A stretch of DNA of 64,000 nucleotides from Tistrella mobilis (GTDB taxonomy: Bacteria; Pseudomonadota; Alphaproteobacteria; Tistrellales; Tistrellaceae): assembly GCF_041468085.1 (NCBI RefSeq), contig NZ_CP121017.1, positions 1,095,501 through 1,159,500 on the forward strand. The letters are read 5' to 3'. Both the position numbers and the translations under genes were made by a program. Positions 3,785 through 57,152 of this stretch are shown piece after piece; within the stretch, counting starts at the first letter, position 1; every line of letters starts with the position of its first letter. A model generated the notes under the pieces. The model saw only the letters and a program-made list of their open reading frames with translations, was not told where the DNA came from and made no database searches.

Positions 3785-5065
3785 TCAGGCCGCGTCGCGG
3801 TCGATGCGCAGATCACTGACCAGCAGATCGCGGCAATCCGCCGCCGCCCGGATCACCCGGTCGAGATCGGCCTGGGTGAGGCCGGAATTGACCGTGAGCC
3901 GGACCAGCGACCGCCCCTTGGGCGTGGCCGGCGCACAGAACACGGCGCCGAAGATGCCGTGATCTTCCAGCCGGTCGCGCAGCTGCGCCGTTTTTGCCTC
4001 GGCACCGCCGATCAGCGAGATGATCGGCGCCGGGCTGTTGCCGACATTGATACCGGCCTCGGCCAGACCCGCGCGCAGATAGGCGGTGTTGGCGAAAAGC
4101 CGCGACCGGCGGTGCTCGTCGGTGCGGATGACGTCGAGCGTGGCACGGAAGCCTGCGATTTCATGCGGCAGGACGGTCGAGCTGAAGATCGCCGGCCGCG
4201 AGGTGTAGCGGAAGTATTCCAGCGTCTTCTTCGTGCCGGCGACGATGCCGCCGCGGCCGACCATGGCCTTCGACAGGCTGAAGGTGCGGAAATGCACCCG
4301 GTGTTCCAGCCCCATGGCGGTGACGAGGCCGGAGCCCTGCGGCCCGAACACGCCGACGCCATGGCTTTCATCGACCACCAGCATGCAGCCGGTCTCTTCG
4401 GCAAGGTCGCAGAGCTGGTCGAGCGGGCAGAGATCGCCGCTGGTGCTGTAGACCGAATCGACCAGGATCACGCCCGGGCCGTTCTTGGCGATCACGCTGC
4501 GCAGATGGGCCATGTTGTTGTGGCGGAAGGGCCGCGGCTTCGCGCCCGCGCTGTGGATGCCCTGCCAGAGCGAGGCATGGCCGTAGAGATCGACATAGAC
4601 CGGGGTGTCGGCATCGGCGATCGCCTGGATCAACCCGTCATTGGCGGCCCAGCCCGACTGGCAGAGGGCGACACCCTCGGCGCCGAGGAAGCGCGCCATC
4701 TCGCGCTCATAGGCGCCCTGGGCGTCGAGGAACTGCACGAACACGCCCGACATGAAGGTTTCGGTCTTCACGTCATCGAGCGCTGCGCGGAGCGCGCCGA
4801 TGATCCGGCCGTCGTCGGCGAGCGAAAGATAGTCGTTGTTGGCCAGCATGATGGATCCGGCCTGCGGCGCGCGGCCGACCGTGACATGATGCTCGGGGTA
4901 CTCGGCCTTCCACTCCGCCATCCGGCGCTGCAGGCCCGGCAGTTCGGGGGCAAGACCGCCCTGGCTGCGGGGCTGCGCCGCGGCGAAGGGCTGGGGCCCC
5001 GACAGGGTGCGGTGCAGGCTGTCGATGGCGGCGTTGCGCACGGCGGCGATCTCATTGGTGAGCAT
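3785..5065 (-). CDS. cqsA: CqsA-type alpha-oxoamine synthase (alpha-hydroxyketone autoinducer synthase)
   Basis: PLP-dependent enzyme of 426 residues in the alpha-oxoamine synthase family, resembling Vibrio CqsA/Legionella LqsA more than 5-aminolevulinate synthase or KBL. CqsA condenses an acyl-CoA with an amino-acid-derived co-substrate to give CAI-1-type signals. CqsA-like features that I recognise are LCQSGWAANDGL, YGHASLWQG...RPFRHNN, VDSVYSTSGDLCPL, VDESHGVGVFGPQG (D232, H235), the Schiff-base lysine K266 in FSLSKAM, PAIFSSTVLPHE and GIFGAVFCAPATPKG. ATG 5065 follows AGGAGA at good spacing. Relative to Vibrio CqsA it has an N-terminal extension of about 45 residues. It is monocistronic, with a long AT-richer leader upstream. 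No receptor is adjacent, but a CqsS-type sensor lies at 39.7 kb. Assignment to the CqsA branch rests on remembered family motifs. Confidence 0.87.
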   Translation of the reverse strand: MLTNEIAAVRNAAIDSLHRTLSGPQPFAAAQPRSQGGLAPELPGLQRRMAEWKAEYPEHHVTVGRAPQAGSIMLANNDYLSLADDGRIIGALRAALDDVKTETFMSGVFVQFLDAQGAYEREMARFLGAEGVALCQSGWAANDGLIQAIADADTPVYVDLYGHASLWQGIHSAGAKPRPFRHNNMAHLRSVIAKNGPGVILVDSVYSTSGDLCPLDQLCDLAEETGCMLVVDESHGVGVFGPQGSGLVTAMGLEHRVHFRTFSLSKAMVGRGGIVAGTKKTLEYFRYTSRPAIFSSTVLPHEIAGFRATLDVIRTDEHRRSRLFANTAYLRAGLAEAGINVGNSPAPIISLIGGAEAKTAQLRDRLEDHGIFGAVFCAPATPKGRSLVRLTVNSGLTQADLDRVIRAAADCRDLLVSDLRIDRDAA

Positions 5066-5565
5066 GTGTCTTCTCCTGAGGTACAGGTCCGGGGATTCGG
5101 ACAGGGGGATGGCGCGTTTCTCGCGCAACCGGGCGGCCATCGGCGCGTTCTGCCCGATGTTCGCAATCCGGAGCTGCGTCCATGGACGCGGGCTCGCTCT
5201 AAGCTACATGGGGAGAGGAAGGGATCGAATCATGAACTGAAACTTAACGACGATATTGAATCACATGTCATTCATCTTCAGGCCATAGAAGACACACGTA
5301 TGAAGGGTGGCATGGCCGGAGATCCTTCAACGGTGTTTTGATTTATTCACACAACTTATAGACGTATAGAATTTCGGACGATTCCCGCACTATCGGCGCC
5401 GGGGGGGCGTCACGCGGGACGCACGAAATCGTGAAGACGACGGGGCACAGGGTGATTGGCGGCCGGATCGATATCCTGGCTATGCTCATCTCAAGGACGG
5501 CAGGGATGCGGACGGGTTCCAGGGGGAACCGGCATTGCCGCCCGACCGAGAGGGAGCAGACTCCG
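5066..5565. other. 500-bp divergent intergenic region between cqsA and the buf operon
   Basis: No gene is supported here. It holds the cqsA leader and promoter (minus strand) and the bufA1 promoter (plus strand). Bases 5230-5390 are distinctly AT-richer than the surroundings, as expected for promoters. Two palindromes are visible: GCGTCCATGGACGC at 5176-5189, 110 bp before the cqsA start, and GGTTCC-AGGG-GGAACC at 5515-5530, about 35 bp before bufA1. Either could be an operator. An open frame antisense to bufA1 across this region looks like a shadow. Confidence 0.6.
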
Positions 5566-30062: not shown

Positions 30063-30326
30063 GGGAAGGCTGCTCCTCAAGGAACCGTATCGTTGTGGTG
30101 GACACAATATAGGCCGCAGGTCGCGACCCACCAACCCGAACGAACATGCGTCATTGATTTCAATGAAGCGTCACTGGTCAACCCTTACCGTCAAGCCATC
30201 GCGCGGTTGGCGTTGGCCAACTTGGTAAATGGACGTGATACGCTTATCTGATTAAATATGCAGTCCTCAGCGGTCGGCCGGCTCTCCGTCCCTCCGTCCA
30301 CGGTATCGGAACGGCGCATCCATCAT

Positions 30327-32018
30327 ATGACACCCACCATCCTGATCGTCGATGACGACCCCGCCCAGCGCCGGCTGCTGGAGGCGACGATCGGCCGTTT
30401 CGGCTATCGGCCGCGGCCGGTGGGCAGCGGCGAGGAAGCGGTGCGTCTGCTGATGCCGGGGCGTGAGCGGGTCGATGCCGTCCTTCTCGACCTCACCATG
30501 CCGGGGCTGTCCGGCATCGACGTGCTGAACCAGGTGCGCCCCATCCGGCCGCATCTGCCGATCCTGGTCTTCACCGCCCATGGCGGTATCGATGTGGCGG
30601 TGCAGGCGATGCGGGCCGGGGCGACGGATTTCATGGTCAAGCCGGTCTCGGCCGACCGGCTGCAGATCGCGATCCGCCAGGCGCTGCGCCCGGGCGTGGC
30701 CGATGATCTGGACGGGGTGGCGCCGCGGCGCGGCCGGCCGATGCCGGTGACCGATATCCTGGGCGACAGCCGGGCGATCCGCGCCGTGCTGGGCCTGGTG
30801 GCGCGGGCGGCCAATTCCACCATCCCGATCCTGATCGAGGGCGAAAGTGGTGTCGGCAAAGAGCTGATCGCACGCGCCATCCATGCCCGCAGCGATCGTA
30901 CCCACGGTCCGCTGGTGACCGTGAACTGCGGTGCGATCCCCGAGAACCTGGTCGAGACCATCCTGTTCGGCCACGAGAAGGGTGCCTTCACCGGGGCGAG
31001 CGAACGCCATATCGGCAAGTTCCAGGAAGCCTCCGGCGGCACCCTGTTCCTGGACGAGATCGGCGAGCTGCGGCCGGATCTGCAGGTCAAGCTGCTGCGT
31101 GCCCTTCAGGCGGGCGAAATCGATCCCGTGGGCTCAAAGCAGCCGGTGCCGATCGATATCCGGCTGATTTCGGCCACCAACCGTAATCTGTGGGATCTGG
31201 TCCAGACCGGCCAGTTCCGCGACGATCTCTATTACCGCCTCAACGTCTTTCCGATCTATGTGCCGCCGCTGCGCGACCGGCGCGACGATATCCTGGTGCT
31301 GGCCCGCCATTTCATCCAGCGCTTCGAGGCGGCCGAGGGCAAGCGCATCCGTGGCCTGACCGAGGCGGCCGAGCGGCTGCTGACCACCTATCACTGGCCG
31401 GGCAATGTCCGCCAACTGGAGAACGCGATCTTCCGGGCCGTCGTGCTGTCGGATGGCGACATCCTGGATGTGGAGCATTTCCCCCAGGTCCAGCAGGCGG
31501 CCTATCGCGCCAACGGCTTCGGCGATACCGCACTGCCCGGCGATTACGGCGCCGGTCCGCCAGTCTATGCCGCGCCCGGCGGCCAGGCGCCGCTGGCACC
31601 GACGCCGGGCGGGCTCGCCTATCCGCAGGCGGTGGGCCAGATGCCGGGTACTCCGATGCCGGGGACTCAGATGGCGGGGGGGCGCCCGATGCTGGTCACG
31701 GCCGGCGGCGGCCAGCCGGCCCCGATGATGCCCCAGGGCTTCGCTCAGGCGCCCATGCCTGCGCCGATGCCGCCGGCGCCTCAGGGCCAGCTGACGGCAA
31801 CCGGCCTGCGCCCGCGCGACGACGAGGCCGAGGCGCCGATCCGCGCCTTCGACGAGGCGGGCCATATCCGGCCGCTGGAAGAGATCGAAGCCGACATCAT
31901 CCGCATGGCGCTGCGCCAGTATCGCGGGCGGGTGAGCGAGATGGCCCGCCGCCTGGGCATCGGCCGGTCCACCCTCTATCGCAAGCTGCGCGATCTGGGC
32001 CTCGACGGCACCGATTGA
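30327..32018 (+). CDS. Sigma-54-dependent response regulator (NtrC/LuxO architecture) with long Pro/Met-rich linker
   Basis: Response regulator of 563 residues. The receiver domain (1-120) has phospho-acceptor D55 in VLLDLTMPG and the switch VFTAHGG...FMVKP. The sigma-54 AAA+ domain (about 145-385) has Walker [10 protein letters not shown], the sigma-54 contact motif [18 protein letters not shown] and the R-finger region. The C-terminal Fis-type HTH (about 525-563) has [25 protein letters not shown]. Between AAA+ and HTH lies an unusual linker of about 120 residues rich in Pro, Gly, Met and Gln ([15 protein letters not shown] and similar). No histidine kinase is adjacent. ATG 30327 is the only start that gives a normal receiver N-terminus. 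Target genes are unknown. Confidence 0.92.
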
Positions 32019-38154: not shown

Positions 38155-39678
38155 ATGAACGTGCGGCGTGACGGTGGAGCGGAGGTTAAGACGGCGACGG
38201 TGACGGCGCGCATGCGCGCCGCACAGCTCGACGCGCTCTATCGTGCCGCCCGGATCGGCATCCTGATGGAACCGCTGGTTTCCATCTGCCTGGCGGTGCT
38301 GATCTGGCCGGCAGCTGCCCAGCAGCAGATTGCGCTCTGGCTGGTCGCGGTCAACTGCCTCGTCGGCCTGCGCTTTGCCGCCATTCAGCGTGACCTGCGC
38401 GATGGCGAGGCCGAGAGCGAGCCCGAACAACGCGCCCTGCCGATCATGATGATCATTGCCGTCAGCGGTGTGATCTGGGGTCTGGCGCCGCTGGTCCTTT
38501 CACCTGCCGCTGCATCCATCGACATGGCCAAGGTGCTGTTCGCCACGGCCGCGATCGGCGTGGCCGGTACGGTGATGATGTCGTGCCATCTGACGGCGGC
38601 CCTGGTCTGGCTTGGGGTGACCTCTGCCGCGCTGACGGCCGGTCTGGTGATTGCAGGGCGGGTGGATCCGCCGCTGCTGCTGGCGATCCTGACATCGGCC
38701 GCCGTGCTGGCGGTGGGGGCGCATTATCTGGCCCGGCTGCTGGATGACGGGCTGCGCCTGCGGATCGAACTGGCCGATGCGGTTCAGGCGGCCCAGGCGG
38801 CCAATATCGCCAAATCCGATTTCCTGGCCAATACCAGCCATGAACTGCGCACGCCTCTGAATGCGATCATCGGTTTCTCGGAGATCCTGATGAACGATCG
38901 GCCGCGCACCGACGCCCAGATCGATGAACAGATGGAATTCGCCCGGCTGATCAACGAGAGCGGCGTCCACCTGCTCGACATCGTGAACGACATTCTCGAC
39001 CTGTCGAAGATTGAAGCCGGCGCCTACAACCTTGACGAGAGCGTCTTCACGCTGGAGAGCATCGTCCGGGCCACCACCAATCTGATGCGCGGCCAGGCCG
39101 ACAAGGCCGGGCTGAAGCTGGTCAACCGGCTGGCACCCGATCTGCCGGCGCTGCGTGGCGACCAGCGGGCGATGAAGCAGGTGCTGCTGAACCTGCTGTC
39201 GAACGCGGTCAAATTCACCCCGATCGGTGGCAGTGTCACGGTCGAGGCACGCATTGCCGAGGAGGGGGGCTTGACGATCGCAGTGGTCGATACCGGCATC
39301 GGCATTGCGCCGGAAGACATTAACCGGGCGATGGAGGCCTTCGGACAGGTGGACAGTGCGCTCAACCGTCGCTATGCGGGCACCGGGCTGGGCCTGCCGC
39401 TGGTCCGGTCGCTGATCGAGATGCATGGCGGCCGCTTCCAGCTGATCAGCCGGGTGAACGAGGGCACCCGTGCCGAGATCGCCTGGCCGGCGGCGCGCGT
39501 GGTGGGCAGCGGTCGGCGGGGCGGCCCCCATTCGGGGGTCAACGACCCCGGCATTGGCGACCGGGGCACCGGCGGCCGGCTGGGCAGTGGCGGCCGCAGC
39601 ATCGAAGGCTCTGGCGGCGATGGCCGGCGGCCGGGGCAGGGCGGCATGCCGACAGGCCCGAGCACGGTGATGGGCTGA
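38155..39678 (+). CDS. Membrane sensor histidine kinase
   Basis: Kinase of 507 residues. The N-terminal part (about 30-195) has six or seven hydrophobic segments without a periplasmic domain. A short coiled-coil follows, then HisKA with phospho-acceptor H229 in FLANTSHELRTPLNAIIGF. The HATPase has NLLSNAVKFTP (N box), DTGIGIAPED (G1) and GTGLGLPLV (G2). All catalytic boxes are intact. The last 55 residues form a Gly/Arg/Ser-rich tail. No response regulator is nearby. Its stop is three bases from the start of a CqsS-like sensor protein that lacks a kinase, so the two products are probably made together and may work as a pair. Confidence 0.92.
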   Translation: MNVRRDGGAEVKTATVTARMRAAQLDALYRAARIGILMEPLVSICLAVLIWPAAAQQQIALWLVAVNCLVGLRFAAIQRDLRDGEAESEPEQRALPIMMIIAVSGVIWGLAPLVLSPAAASIDMAKVLFATAAIGVAGTVMMSCHLTAALVWLGVTSAALTAGLVIAGRVDPPLLLAILTSAAVLAVGAHYLARLLDDGLRLRIELADAVQAAQAANIAKSDFLANTSHELRTPLNAIIGFSEILMNDRPRTDAQIDEQMEFARLINESGVHLLDIVNDILDLSKIEAGAYNLDESVFTLESIVRATTNLMRGQADKAGLKLVNRLAPDLPALRGDQRAMKQVLLNLLSNAVKFTPIGGSVTVEARIAEEGGLTIAVVDTGIGIAPEDINRAMEAFGQVDSALNRRYAGTGLGLPLVRSLIEMHGGRFQLISRVNEGTRAEIAWPAARVVGSGRRGGPHSGVNDPGIGDRGTGGRLGSGGRSIEGSGGDGRRPGQGGMPTGPSTVMG

Positions 39679-39681
39679 ACC

Positions 39682-40575
39682 ATGTCGGGCAGCAGCATTT
39701 TCAGATCCGACCCGAGGCCGGCTGGCGAGATCGCGCGCGCCGGTACGGAAGTGCCGGCAGGCAGCCTGCGCGGCATCATCCTGAACGGCTTCCGCCATAT
39801 CGAGCCCAATCTCGTGCCGGTATCGATCGCCGGTGCGGTGATGATGCCGGCCTATTGGATGGTCTGGACCTTCCTCTTCCCCCAGGCCTACGAAAATCTC
39901 GGTCTGCGTCTGGCCGGCTCGGTGCTCTGCCTGGCGCTCGCCTTCAGCAGGCGCTGGCCTGCCCGCCTGCAGGCGTGGATCCCCGCGGTCTGGCTGGTGA
40001 TGCTGGGCTATTGCCTGCCGTTCTTCTTCACCTTCATGACGGTGATGAACGGCGGTTCGGTCATCTGGCAGATGTCGACCCTGACCGCCCTGTTCCTGCT
40101 GGTGCTGCTGGTCGACTGGTTCAGCCTGATCATGCTGTTCCTGATCGGCACCGGGCTTGGTGTGCTGATGGCCCTGATCACCGGCCCGCCCGAACATGAC
40201 GTGGCGATCTATGCCGAATATGCCCCGATCCTGGCCTTCGGCCTGCTGGGCGGCGCGATCTTCAACTACAACGCCGCCAATTCGCGGGCGGTGCGGGAGA
40301 GGGCGCTCGCCGAAAGCGGCCGGGCCGCCGGGCGTATGGTGCAGACGCCGCTGATGAGCATCCGGACCTCGGCCCGGTCGCTGGAGACCTATCTGCCCGG
40401 GCTGGTGCGCAGCCATCGCATCGCCCGTGCCCAGGGCGTGCCGGTGGAGAGTTTCGACGACGCCCATCTGGAAGCCTTGCTGCACGTACCGACCCGGATC
40501 GACGATGATTGCGCCGAAGTCGCCCGGCGCCTCCAGGCCCTGGGCGAGCCGGGTGACCATCGGCGGCGCGGCTGA
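39682..40575 (+). CDS. CqsS-type six-helix receptor protein without kinase activity
   Basis: Membrane protein of 297 residues whose residues 40-200 closely resemble the ligand-binding region of Vibrio CqsS, the CAI-1 receptor. Shared are H/A-EPNL (41-44), PAYWMVWTFLFPQAYENLGLRL, GYCLPFFFTFMTVMNGG and IWQMS (W129, S132, matching the CqsS ligand-selectivity positions W104/S107 as I recall them). After the sixth helix the usual HisKA would follow. Here the region reads RMVQTPLMSIRTSARSLETYLPG, lacking the phospho-acceptor His, and the protein ends about 75 residues later with no HATPase and no receiver. Only a helical dimerisation-like stub remains. It is coupled to the upstream complete histidine kinase (3-bp gap, no separate ribosome site). 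Confidence 0.85.
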   Translation: MSGSSIFRSDPRPAGEIARAGTEVPAGSLRGIILNGFRHIEPNLVPVSIAGAVMMPAYWMVWTFLFPQAYENLGLRLAGSVLCLALAFSRRWPARLQAWIPAVWLVMLGYCLPFFFTFMTVMNGGSVIWQMSTLTALFLLVLLVDWFSLIMLFLIGTGLGVLMALITGPPEHDVAIYAEYAPILAFGLLGGAIFNYNAANSRAVRERALAESGRAAGRMVQTPLMSIRTSARSLETYLPGLVRSHRIARAQGVPVESFDDAHLEALLHVPTRIDDDCAEVARRLQALGEPGDHRRRG

Positions 40576-40674
40576 GATCCCGTTCTCAAGCGGATTTTAC
40601 GTCACCATCACTTAAACCGTGTTCGATCGCACAAGCCTCGGGCGCCGGTGATGATTATGATGAAGATGAAGCTG

Positions 40675-55737: not shown

Positions 55738-55883
55738 CGGGCCGTCTCCTGGTAGGATGTTTGGCCTGATAGCCGGGAGAGGGTCGCCGCGTTGCGCTCG
55801 AAGGATGATCTTCGTGCATGAGATTGGCGCCCTCGCCCGGTGCTTTTTGCCCGAACGGTATCCGGCGGTGTCGTGGCGAGGGG

Positions 55884-55917
55884 GCGGATGACCGCCCCGA
55901 TCGGGGCGGTCATCCGC
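55884..55917. ncRNA. 34-bp perfect palindrome in the IS110 leader, candidate bridge-RNA stem
   Basis: GCGGATGACCGCCCCGA followed immediately by its reverse complement, 66 bp before the transposase start. IS110-group elements express a structured bridge (seek) RNA from this position. The palindrome could be one of its stems or a transposase-binding site. A loop-less 17-bp arm would need to open a few central bases to fold. No target or donor loop could be assigned. Confidence 0.4.
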
Positions 55918-55982
55918 GCATGGACAAGCAGGGGCACGAGCACCGGCTCCGAGGCTTCCGGCTCATCCGCACGGGAGGCGCC

Positions 55983-57152
55983 ATGCAATTCGTCGGCATC
56001 GACATCGCGTCGGAAACCCATGTCTTCGCCATCCTTGATGCGGACGGCACGGTCCTGGCCAAACCCAAGCCGTTCACCGAAGACGCGGCCGGGCACGGCG
56101 CGTTGCTGGCCGCGCTGGCCCCGCCGGGTGAGGCGCTGGTGGTCATGGAGGCGACCGGGCATTACTGGAAGAACCTGTTCGCCGTGCTGGCGGCCAAGGG
56201 CTACGAGGTCGCCCTGATCAACCCGCTGCGCACCCACCGCTTCCAGGGCGAGAGCCTGGAGCGCACCAAGACCGACGCCATCGACGCCCTCGGCCTGGCC
56301 CGCTTCGGGCGGGAAAAGCGCCCCTCCCCGACCCGGCTGGGCAGCCGGGCCAGCGAGGAGCTGCGCGAACTGGTTCGCCACCGCGACCGGCTGCGCCAGG
56401 ATTTCGACGACCGCGTCCGCCAGCTCCGCCGGCTGGTCGATCTCGGCTTCCCGGAATTCCGACGCTATGTCCGCACGCTCGACAGCATGCTGGCCACCGC
56501 CATCCTGGCGGAATACCCCACCGCCGAGGCCGTCGCCAAAGCCACGCCACGCCGGCTCGCCAAGCTGCGCTACGATGGCCGCCACGCCGTCGGAAGCGAA
56601 CTGGCCGACCAGATCATCGCCGCGGCCAAGCGCTCGGTCGGCCAGCACCACGGCCCCGCCTACCGCGTCCAGGTCCGCGACATCTGTCAGGATCTCGATC
56701 TGTGGCGCCGCCGCTTGGCCGACCGTGACGACGACATCACCCGTCTGCTCGACGAGCACGAGGTCGGCTCGCTGCTGACCTCCATCGACGGAATCGGTCC
56801 CAGCACCGCAGCACGCCTCATCGCCGAACTCGGCGATCCGGCCCGCTTCGACAGCCCCGCAGCCCTGGCAGCCTACGTCGGCGTCATCCCAGCCCTGCGC
56901 CACTCCGGAAAGCGCCGCCCCACCCGCGCCGGCATCACCCCGATCGGCAACGCGCGCCTGCGCACCGCCTTGTGGATGCCAACCCTCACCGCTGTCCGCC
57001 GAAACCCGTGGCTCAAAGCCTTCTACGACCGACTGCGCGCACAGGGAAAGCCACCAAAGCTCGCCCTCGTCGCCGCCATGCGAAAACTCCTCGTCGCCGT
57101 CTACGCCGTCGCCAAGGCTCGAAAACCCTTCGTGCCAAAGCTCGCCGACTGA
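55983..57152 (+). CDS. IS110-family transposase (DEDD recombinase)
   Basis: Transposase of 389 residues. The N-terminal RuvC-like DEDD domain has D7 (FVGIDIASETH), E56 (VVMEATGHYW), D98 and D101 (ERTKTDAIDALGLARF). A coiled-coil follows, then the C-terminal Tnp domain with a helix-hairpin-helix (SIDGIGPSTAARLIAELGD) and the conserved AYVGVIPALRHSGKRR...ITPIGNARLR, containing the family serine. All motifs are intact, so it may be active. ATG 55983 gives the family N-terminus MQFVGID. Composition does not differ visibly from the host genome. Confidence 0.95.
   Translation: MQFVGIDIASETHVFAILDADGTVLAKPKPFTEDAAGHGALLAALAPPGEALVVMEATGHYWKNLFAVLAAKGYEVALINPLRTHRFQGESLERTKTDAIDALGLARFGREKRPSPTRLGSRASEELRELVRHRDRLRQDFDDRVRQLRRLVDLGFPEFRRYVRTLDSMLATAILAEYPTAEAVAKATPRRLAKLRYDGRHAVGSELADQIIAAAKRSVGQHHGPAYRVQVRDICQDLDLWRRRLADRDDDITRLLDEHEVGSLLTSIDGIGPSTAARLIAELGDPARFDSPAALAAYVGVIPALRHSGKRRPTRAGITPIGNARLRTALWMPTLTAVRRNPWLKAFYDRLRAQGKPPKLALVAAMRKLLVAVYAVAKARKPFVPKLAD

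Follow-up and report, generated by a model that had tools for sequence, protein, structure and literature searches.

We find that an open reading frame of Tistrella mobilis (positions 39682-40575, +) encodes a His-less CqsS-type receptor without kinase function of its own, a finding supported by profile search, alignment, tree and the absence of a catalytic-domain remnant. Positions refer to the window, i.e. the whole 64,000-nucleotide stretch of DNA that was analysed. The reading we favour, with a probability of about 0.6, is that this protein serves as receptor subunit in a split alpha-hydroxyketone quorum-sensing system, in which the ligand, its binding, the partnership with a second protein and the output are all inferred. 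An initial annotation, made from the letters alone, had already claimed a CqsS-type receptor that lacks a kinase, and this held; it missed the CqsA synthase in the window and the fact that the receptor is paired, in a conserved manner, with the kinase upstream, and most of the functional argument rests on these two points.

The frame opens with an ATG, encodes 297 residues (a six-TM receptor domain followed by a degenerate DHp, with neither catalytic domain nor receiver) and has a GC3 of 0.87, a coding-type value typical of the window genes. Neither Pfam nor NCBIfam gave a match for it, and the relationship to CqsS was therefore tested directly with an HMM of our own, built from nine Vibrio-type CqsS receptor domains and nothing else. 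This profile search, which the initial annotation had suggested as a check, matched residues 38-198 of the receptor (118.6 bits, E=9.9e-36) and gave no second match among all window ORFs of >=60 residues. Profile match and alignment together place the CqsS-type six-TM receptor domain at residues 38-205 (39793..40296, +). Identity to V. campbellii CqsS is 30% over 219 residues (BLASTP), and a PDB sequence search with the receptor returned no meaningful relatives.

The protein resembles Vibrio CqsS, the CAI-1 receptor and a hybrid histidine kinase, in its six-TM domain, in an associated CqsA and in the EPNL, FPQxYENLxLR, CLPxFFxxM and W-x-x-S motifs; indeed, the EPNL, FPQAYENLGLRL, CLPFFFTFM and IWQMS stretches of the Tistrella receptor align with Vibrio CqsS. 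In the alignment, W129, S132 and F186 take the places of W104, S107 and F162 in V. cholerae CqsS, for which a role as ligand determinants has been reported (PMC3376566). Position C170, which has a role in tail length and is a Phe in V. harveyi (PMC3285556), is also a Phe in Tistrella (F194), which by analogy with F175 of V. harveyi would predict that C8 tails are preferred to C10, while Leu and Gly occupy the positions of F160 and F166, at which LqsS likewise differs (PMC3376566). When the genome was searched with the receptor as query, only the receptor itself was matched, making it the sole CqsS-type receptor; a second full-length CqsS, considered as a coupling partner, was rejected, as there is none in the genome. 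No phage-borne copies of the receptor were found. The locus lies on a 4.9 Mb contig (C4) here and on the 1.13 Mb megaplasmid pTM3 (NC_017958.1) in T. mobilis KA081020-065, whose receptor is 95% identical, and this difference suggests replicon fusion or exchange. A 686-aa open frame runs antisense to the kinase and receptor genes (38500-40560, -) and is most likely a high-GC artefact.

Unlike Vibrio CqsS, the Tistrella receptor has no phosphoacceptor His, no catalytic domain and no receiver. The position of the H-box His is taken by Arg218 (codon 40333-40335), within the motif R218-M-V-Q-T-P-L, so that G-R-M-V-Q-T-P-L of the receptor aligns with A-H-E-L-R-T-P-L of its relatives; Arg218 corresponds to the phosphoacceptor H194 of V. 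cholerae CqsS. Neither HisKA nor HATPase was detected in the ORF at Pfam E<=1, and the protein stops at residue 297 without a C-terminal receiver, only 13 residues beyond the homologous region, as opposed to 126 to 627 more in relatives (the shortest of these extensions being truncated by a contig end). A tblastn search for a catalytic-domain remnant in the ~1.7 kb downstream, in any frame, gave chance-level matches only (best E=0.37 and above), whereas the positive-control locus gave 1e-131. With Arg218 in place of the His and no ATP-binding domain, the receptor cannot autophosphorylate. Directly 3' of the gene there is a weak terminator-like hairpin (40580..40593, +), weak because three such hairpins were found where 1.6 were expected.

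A sequencing or assembly frameshift could hide a full kinase, and the initial annotation had itself pointed to a frameshift that restores a kinase domain as a possible refutation. No such frameshift was found. Two further Tistrella species, with 95% protein identity, keep both the ORF and its stop, which makes an error of this kind very unlikely; the stop is the same in all three independent genomes, one of them being the complete pTM3 sequence of T. mobilis, and no remnant of the catalytic domain was detected in any frame of the ~1.7 kb downstream. We regard this explanation as all but excluded.

What remains behind the membrane domain is under strong selection. The residual ~80 residues align with essentially the whole two-helix DHp, and a degenerate DHp predicted to form a two-helix hairpin can be placed at residues 206-290 (40297..40551, +) by alignment, dN/dS and a low-confidence model. 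Between Tistrella species, dN/dS is ~0.10 for the whole protein, 0.32 for its fast-evolving N-terminal 29 residues, 0.06-0.09 for the TM domain and ~0.03 for the DHp, which is the most constrained part of the receptor. The neighbouring kinase, CqsA and other genes have values of 0.06-0.13, above that of the DHp, and thus selection on the degenerate DHp is as strong as anywhere in the locus. The AlphaFold2 model of the receptor, computed with two sequences, has a mean pLDDT of 49, with only the DHp helices reaching 70-83; no fold search was therefore made from it.

These values also bear on the possibility that the gene no longer has a function and is merely what is left of a decaying CqsS kinase, as the loss of both the catalytic His and the whole catalytic domain might suggest. 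Against this stand the intact ORF in three species, the dN/dS of ~0.10 overall and 0.03 in the DHp, the retained ligand determinants and an independent His-less relative that still has its catalytic domain. A pseudogene is rejected on the basis of dN/dS and conservation, and decay is very unlikely. Set against these results, several claims of the initial annotation held: EPNL, IWQMS and the Trp/Ser positions as CqsS hallmarks (by alignment to Vibrio CqsS, W104/S107 being W129/S132), the replacement of the histidine motif by MVQTP (the His position being R218) and the lack of HATPase and receiver (by Pfam, the protein end and the downstream search). Its description of the HisKA as a stub failed, since the DHp is near-complete and the most constrained part of the protein.

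Receptor matches were found in 14 genomes in a sample of 385 Alphaproteobacteria and in 21 genomes in a sample of 398 Pseudomonadota, and plasmid records added relatives in Vibrio, Paraburkholderia, Dyella and others. In a receptor alignment of 42 rows, the H-box His is kept in all 38 sequences outside Tistrella and G003, the latter belonging to another alphaproteobacterial order, of which it is the only genome examined. The truncated architecture of 297 residues, with its stop, was found in this survey of homologues in three Tistrella species only (our family sample consisted of three Tistrella genomes). The G003 receptor (454 aa) has a Lys at the H-box His position and retains a Pfam-positive HATPase domain; it is the sister of the Tistrella receptor (tree support 99/97), and the two TM domains are 43% identical. 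Since G003 has a Lys yet keeps the catalytic domain, the His was probably lost first. We consider it likely, although inferred from two lineages, that this loss took place in the common ancestor of the Tistrella and G003 receptors and that the catalytic domain was lost later on the Tistrella branch.

Most of the non-Vibrio relatives found are kinases of 410-470 aa without a receiver. The statement in the initial annotation that known CqsS/LqsS proteins are complete hybrid kinases therefore held in part, for Vibrio CqsS only, as a receiver is lacking in LqsS and in most of the environmental relatives (PMC3376566); it had also called a stand-alone receptor unusual, and the absence of a receiver as such is not. 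Legionella LqsS, Janthinobacterium JqsS and the environmental CqsS-type kinases share with the Tistrella protein the receptor domain, the lack of a receiver and a CqsA/LqsA neighbour (PMC3376566, PMC3566124), but they keep the His and the catalytic domain and often adjoin LqsR, whereas the Tistrella receptor has lost both, and the LqsR query used matched no relative in any of the four genomes that carry His-less receptors.

A CqsA-type alpha-hydroxyketone autoinducer synthase is present in the window (3785..5140, -), identified by the NCBIfam equivalog NF005526 (479.7 vs a cut-off of 428 bits). It is 44% identical to V. campbellii CqsA and keeps the PLP-binding lysine (CqsA K236), the Lys of its SLSKA aligning to that of SLAKT in V. 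campbellii. CqsA and receptor lie ~35 kb apart, a distance retained in all three Tistrella genomes. Only seven of the 385 sampled alphaproteobacterial genomes have CqsA, namely the three Tistrella genomes, G003, which has two copies, and three members of a single other genus, for which this sample yielded no CqsS receptor match. The G003 copy that lies between kinase and receptor scores above the NF005526 cut-off; whether the Tistrella and G003 synthases are sisters was not resolved by the CqsA tree. At the second G003 locus and in G187 and G358, CqsA forms a divergent gene pair with a histidine kinase that lacks a CqsS domain (L151:9160-11977, L153:8798-11991 and L154:8949-12120), and these kinases are possibly a different kind of alpha-hydroxyketone sensor. 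A membrane domain shared between the Tistrella kinase and the CqsA-paired kinases of G187 and G358 was considered and rejected, as no similarity was found. In G280, a single 1206-aa ORF (L152:9891-13511, +) contains two MMPL transporter stretches and, behind them, a CqsA domain; it adjoins a second CqsA, whose ORF opens with a transposase-like DUF772 stretch. This could be a fusion of exporter and synthase, or else an artefact of assembly or insertion. The window itself also encodes an IS110-family RNA-guided transposase (55812-57146, +).

Immediately upstream of the receptor lies the gene for a membrane histidine kinase of 507 aa with intact HisKA and HATPase (38155..39678, +), which is our proposed signalling partner. 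Its stop precedes the receptor ATG by 3 bases in this genome, and the gap is 3 to 5 nt across the three Tistrella species, indicating a tight operon. In G003 the order is kinase, CqsA and convergent His-less receptor, all within 4.3 kb. The Tistrella and G003 kinases are mutual best full-length hits (40% identity) and sisters in a 45-row catalytic-core tree (97/92, with the bootstrap not fully settled), so that kinase and receptor are conserved together across two orders. The membrane domain of the kinase diverges fast (25% between Tistrella and G003) and was rejected as a family marker, with G003 ranking no better than unrelated genomes; the case for orthology is therefore built on the mutual best hits at full length and on the tree of catalytic cores. 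With the Tistrella kinase as query, a separate kinase was found within several kb of none of 20 His-containing CqsS loci (0/20). In many His-containing loci CqsA adjoins the receptor kinase, at times with an LqsR-like regulator in between. For the loci compared, a separate kinase tracks the His-less state of the receptor, but two lineages with one origin amount to a single evolutionary event.

In the split system that we propose, CqsA would make a CAI-1/LAI-1-like alpha-hydroxyketone or its amino precursor, and the six-TM domain of the His-less CqsS would bind this signal in the membrane, for which there are no binding data. The ligand state may then be passed through the conserved degenerate DHp helices, through TM contacts or through both to the kinase encoded at 38155-39678, and would change how this protein balances kinase and phosphatase activity toward a response regulator not yet identified. 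The identity of the ligand, a physical contact between receptor and kinase, the direction of regulation and the output are all inferred. An NtrC/LuxO-type sigma-54 response regulator (30255-32012, +) is encoded 6 kb upstream of the kinase, a generic family match below the LuxO cut-off; it is a possible output regulator on proximity only. The search for an LqsR-type regulator in the four genomes that have a His-less receptor, made with one LqsR query and no positive-control genome, gave none.

As precedents for this proposal, dead kinases that regulate live ones are represented by DivL with CckA, RetS with GacS and a truncated ChrS with HrrS (PMC9491836); like the Tistrella receptor, these pseudo-histidine kinases are kinase-derived and are proposed to regulate a second, active kinase via dimerisation-type helices. 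Unlike the Tistrella protein, they are not known quorum-sensing receptors, the truncation of ChrS arose in laboratory evolution, and it is in Tistrella that a six-TM domain inferred to bind the signal is kept while the catalytic domain has been lost entirely by evolution. A separate membrane receptor driving a kinase is known from UhpC-UhpB, in which a polytopic receptor without kinase activity is encoded with the membrane histidine kinase that it activates (PMC8871633), although UhpC is a transporter relative, whereas the Tistrella receptor descends from a kinase. Finally, a CqsS-adenylate cyclase chimera is regulated by ligand, i.e. the CqsS receptor domain can drive a foreign dimeric effector (PMC4821796). 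A bolder reading, which we consider slightly more likely than not, is that a CqsS relative lost first its His, a state kept in G003, and then, in Tistrella, its whole catalytic domain, and that its dedicated role is now to bind the signal on behalf of a separate histidine kinase, of another family, that was inherited along with it.

Several points speak against a split system. The kinase has a membrane domain and possibly an input of its own, the Tistrella CqsA is ~35 kb away rather than adjacent to the receptor and is not resolved as sister of the G003 synthase, the association with a kinase is a single evolutionary event, and the structure model is poor. Some Alphaproteobacteria pair CqsA with a kinase where no CqsS domain was detected, so that in principle the Tistrella kinase might detect the signal without help. 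The main rival, which remains possible, is that the upstream kinase itself senses the signal or something else, with the His-less CqsS in an accessory role in which it fine-tunes the kinase, sequesters the ligand or blocks signalling (as a decoy or dominant negative). Sensing by the kinase is supported by its multi-helix membrane domain and by the kinases without CqsS domain that adjoin CqsA in G187, G358 and the second G003 locus; an accessory role is supported in that non-productive heterodimers could arise through the degenerate DHp, much as has been proposed for the partners of pseudokinases (PMC9491836). However, the Tistrella kinase has a membrane domain unrelated to the one in those other CqsA-linked kinases, and this domain is 25% identical between Tistrella and G003 as against 43% for the receptor TM domain, which keeps its ligand determinants. 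A blocking receptor would find no full-length CqsS in this genome that it could poison.

Alternatively, the receptor could work with another partner, either one more of the ~50 kinases or a non-kinase effector, its place after the kinase being incidental. The adenylate cyclase chimera shows that other dimeric effectors are possible (PMC4821796), and there are ~52 kinase-like matches in the Tistrella genome. We consider this unlikely, as the kinase-receptor neighbourhood is kept across two orders, with both genes sisters, and the gap in Tistrella is 3-5 nt.

If the split reading is correct, the locus extends what is known of this type of signalling. CqsS/LqsS-type quorum-sensing receptors have been described as one-piece sensor kinases, and their use has been reviewed as apparently restricted to some gammaproteobacteria and scattered environmental relatives (PMC3376566). 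The Tistrella locus puts a circuit of synthase and receptor in Alphaproteobacteria, with kinase activity and the inferred signal binding on different proteins. The receptor domain and the synthase belong to known families, and the new part is the split arrangement, which is inferred. The open-licence literature searched yielded neither a paper that deals with CqsA/CqsS in Tistrella nor one that describes a CqsS lacking its kinase, which is not proof of absence. The locus would also offer a natural case, with an intermediate surviving in a relative, of a receptor kinase turning into a pure receptor that borrows another kinase. Furthermore, this is a small six-TM protein for which the ligand class is known and a candidate partner is defined, and it could reveal how the state of a membrane receptor is passed on through DHp helices when the receptor carries out no phosphotransfer itself.

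Other arrangements of CqsS-like domains were observed among the relatives. In reduced-genome Alphaproteobacteria (L015, L017, L020, L022, L024, L025, L026), a sodium:solute symporter domain is followed by a CqsS-like six-TM domain and a histidine kinase, and as many as five such proteins occur in one genome (G086). On a plasmid of Paraburkholderia caribensis (L028:3912-7553), a CqsS-like hybrid kinase comes right after a ketoacyl-synthase III-type gene, not CqsA, and this gene is possibly a different signal synthase.
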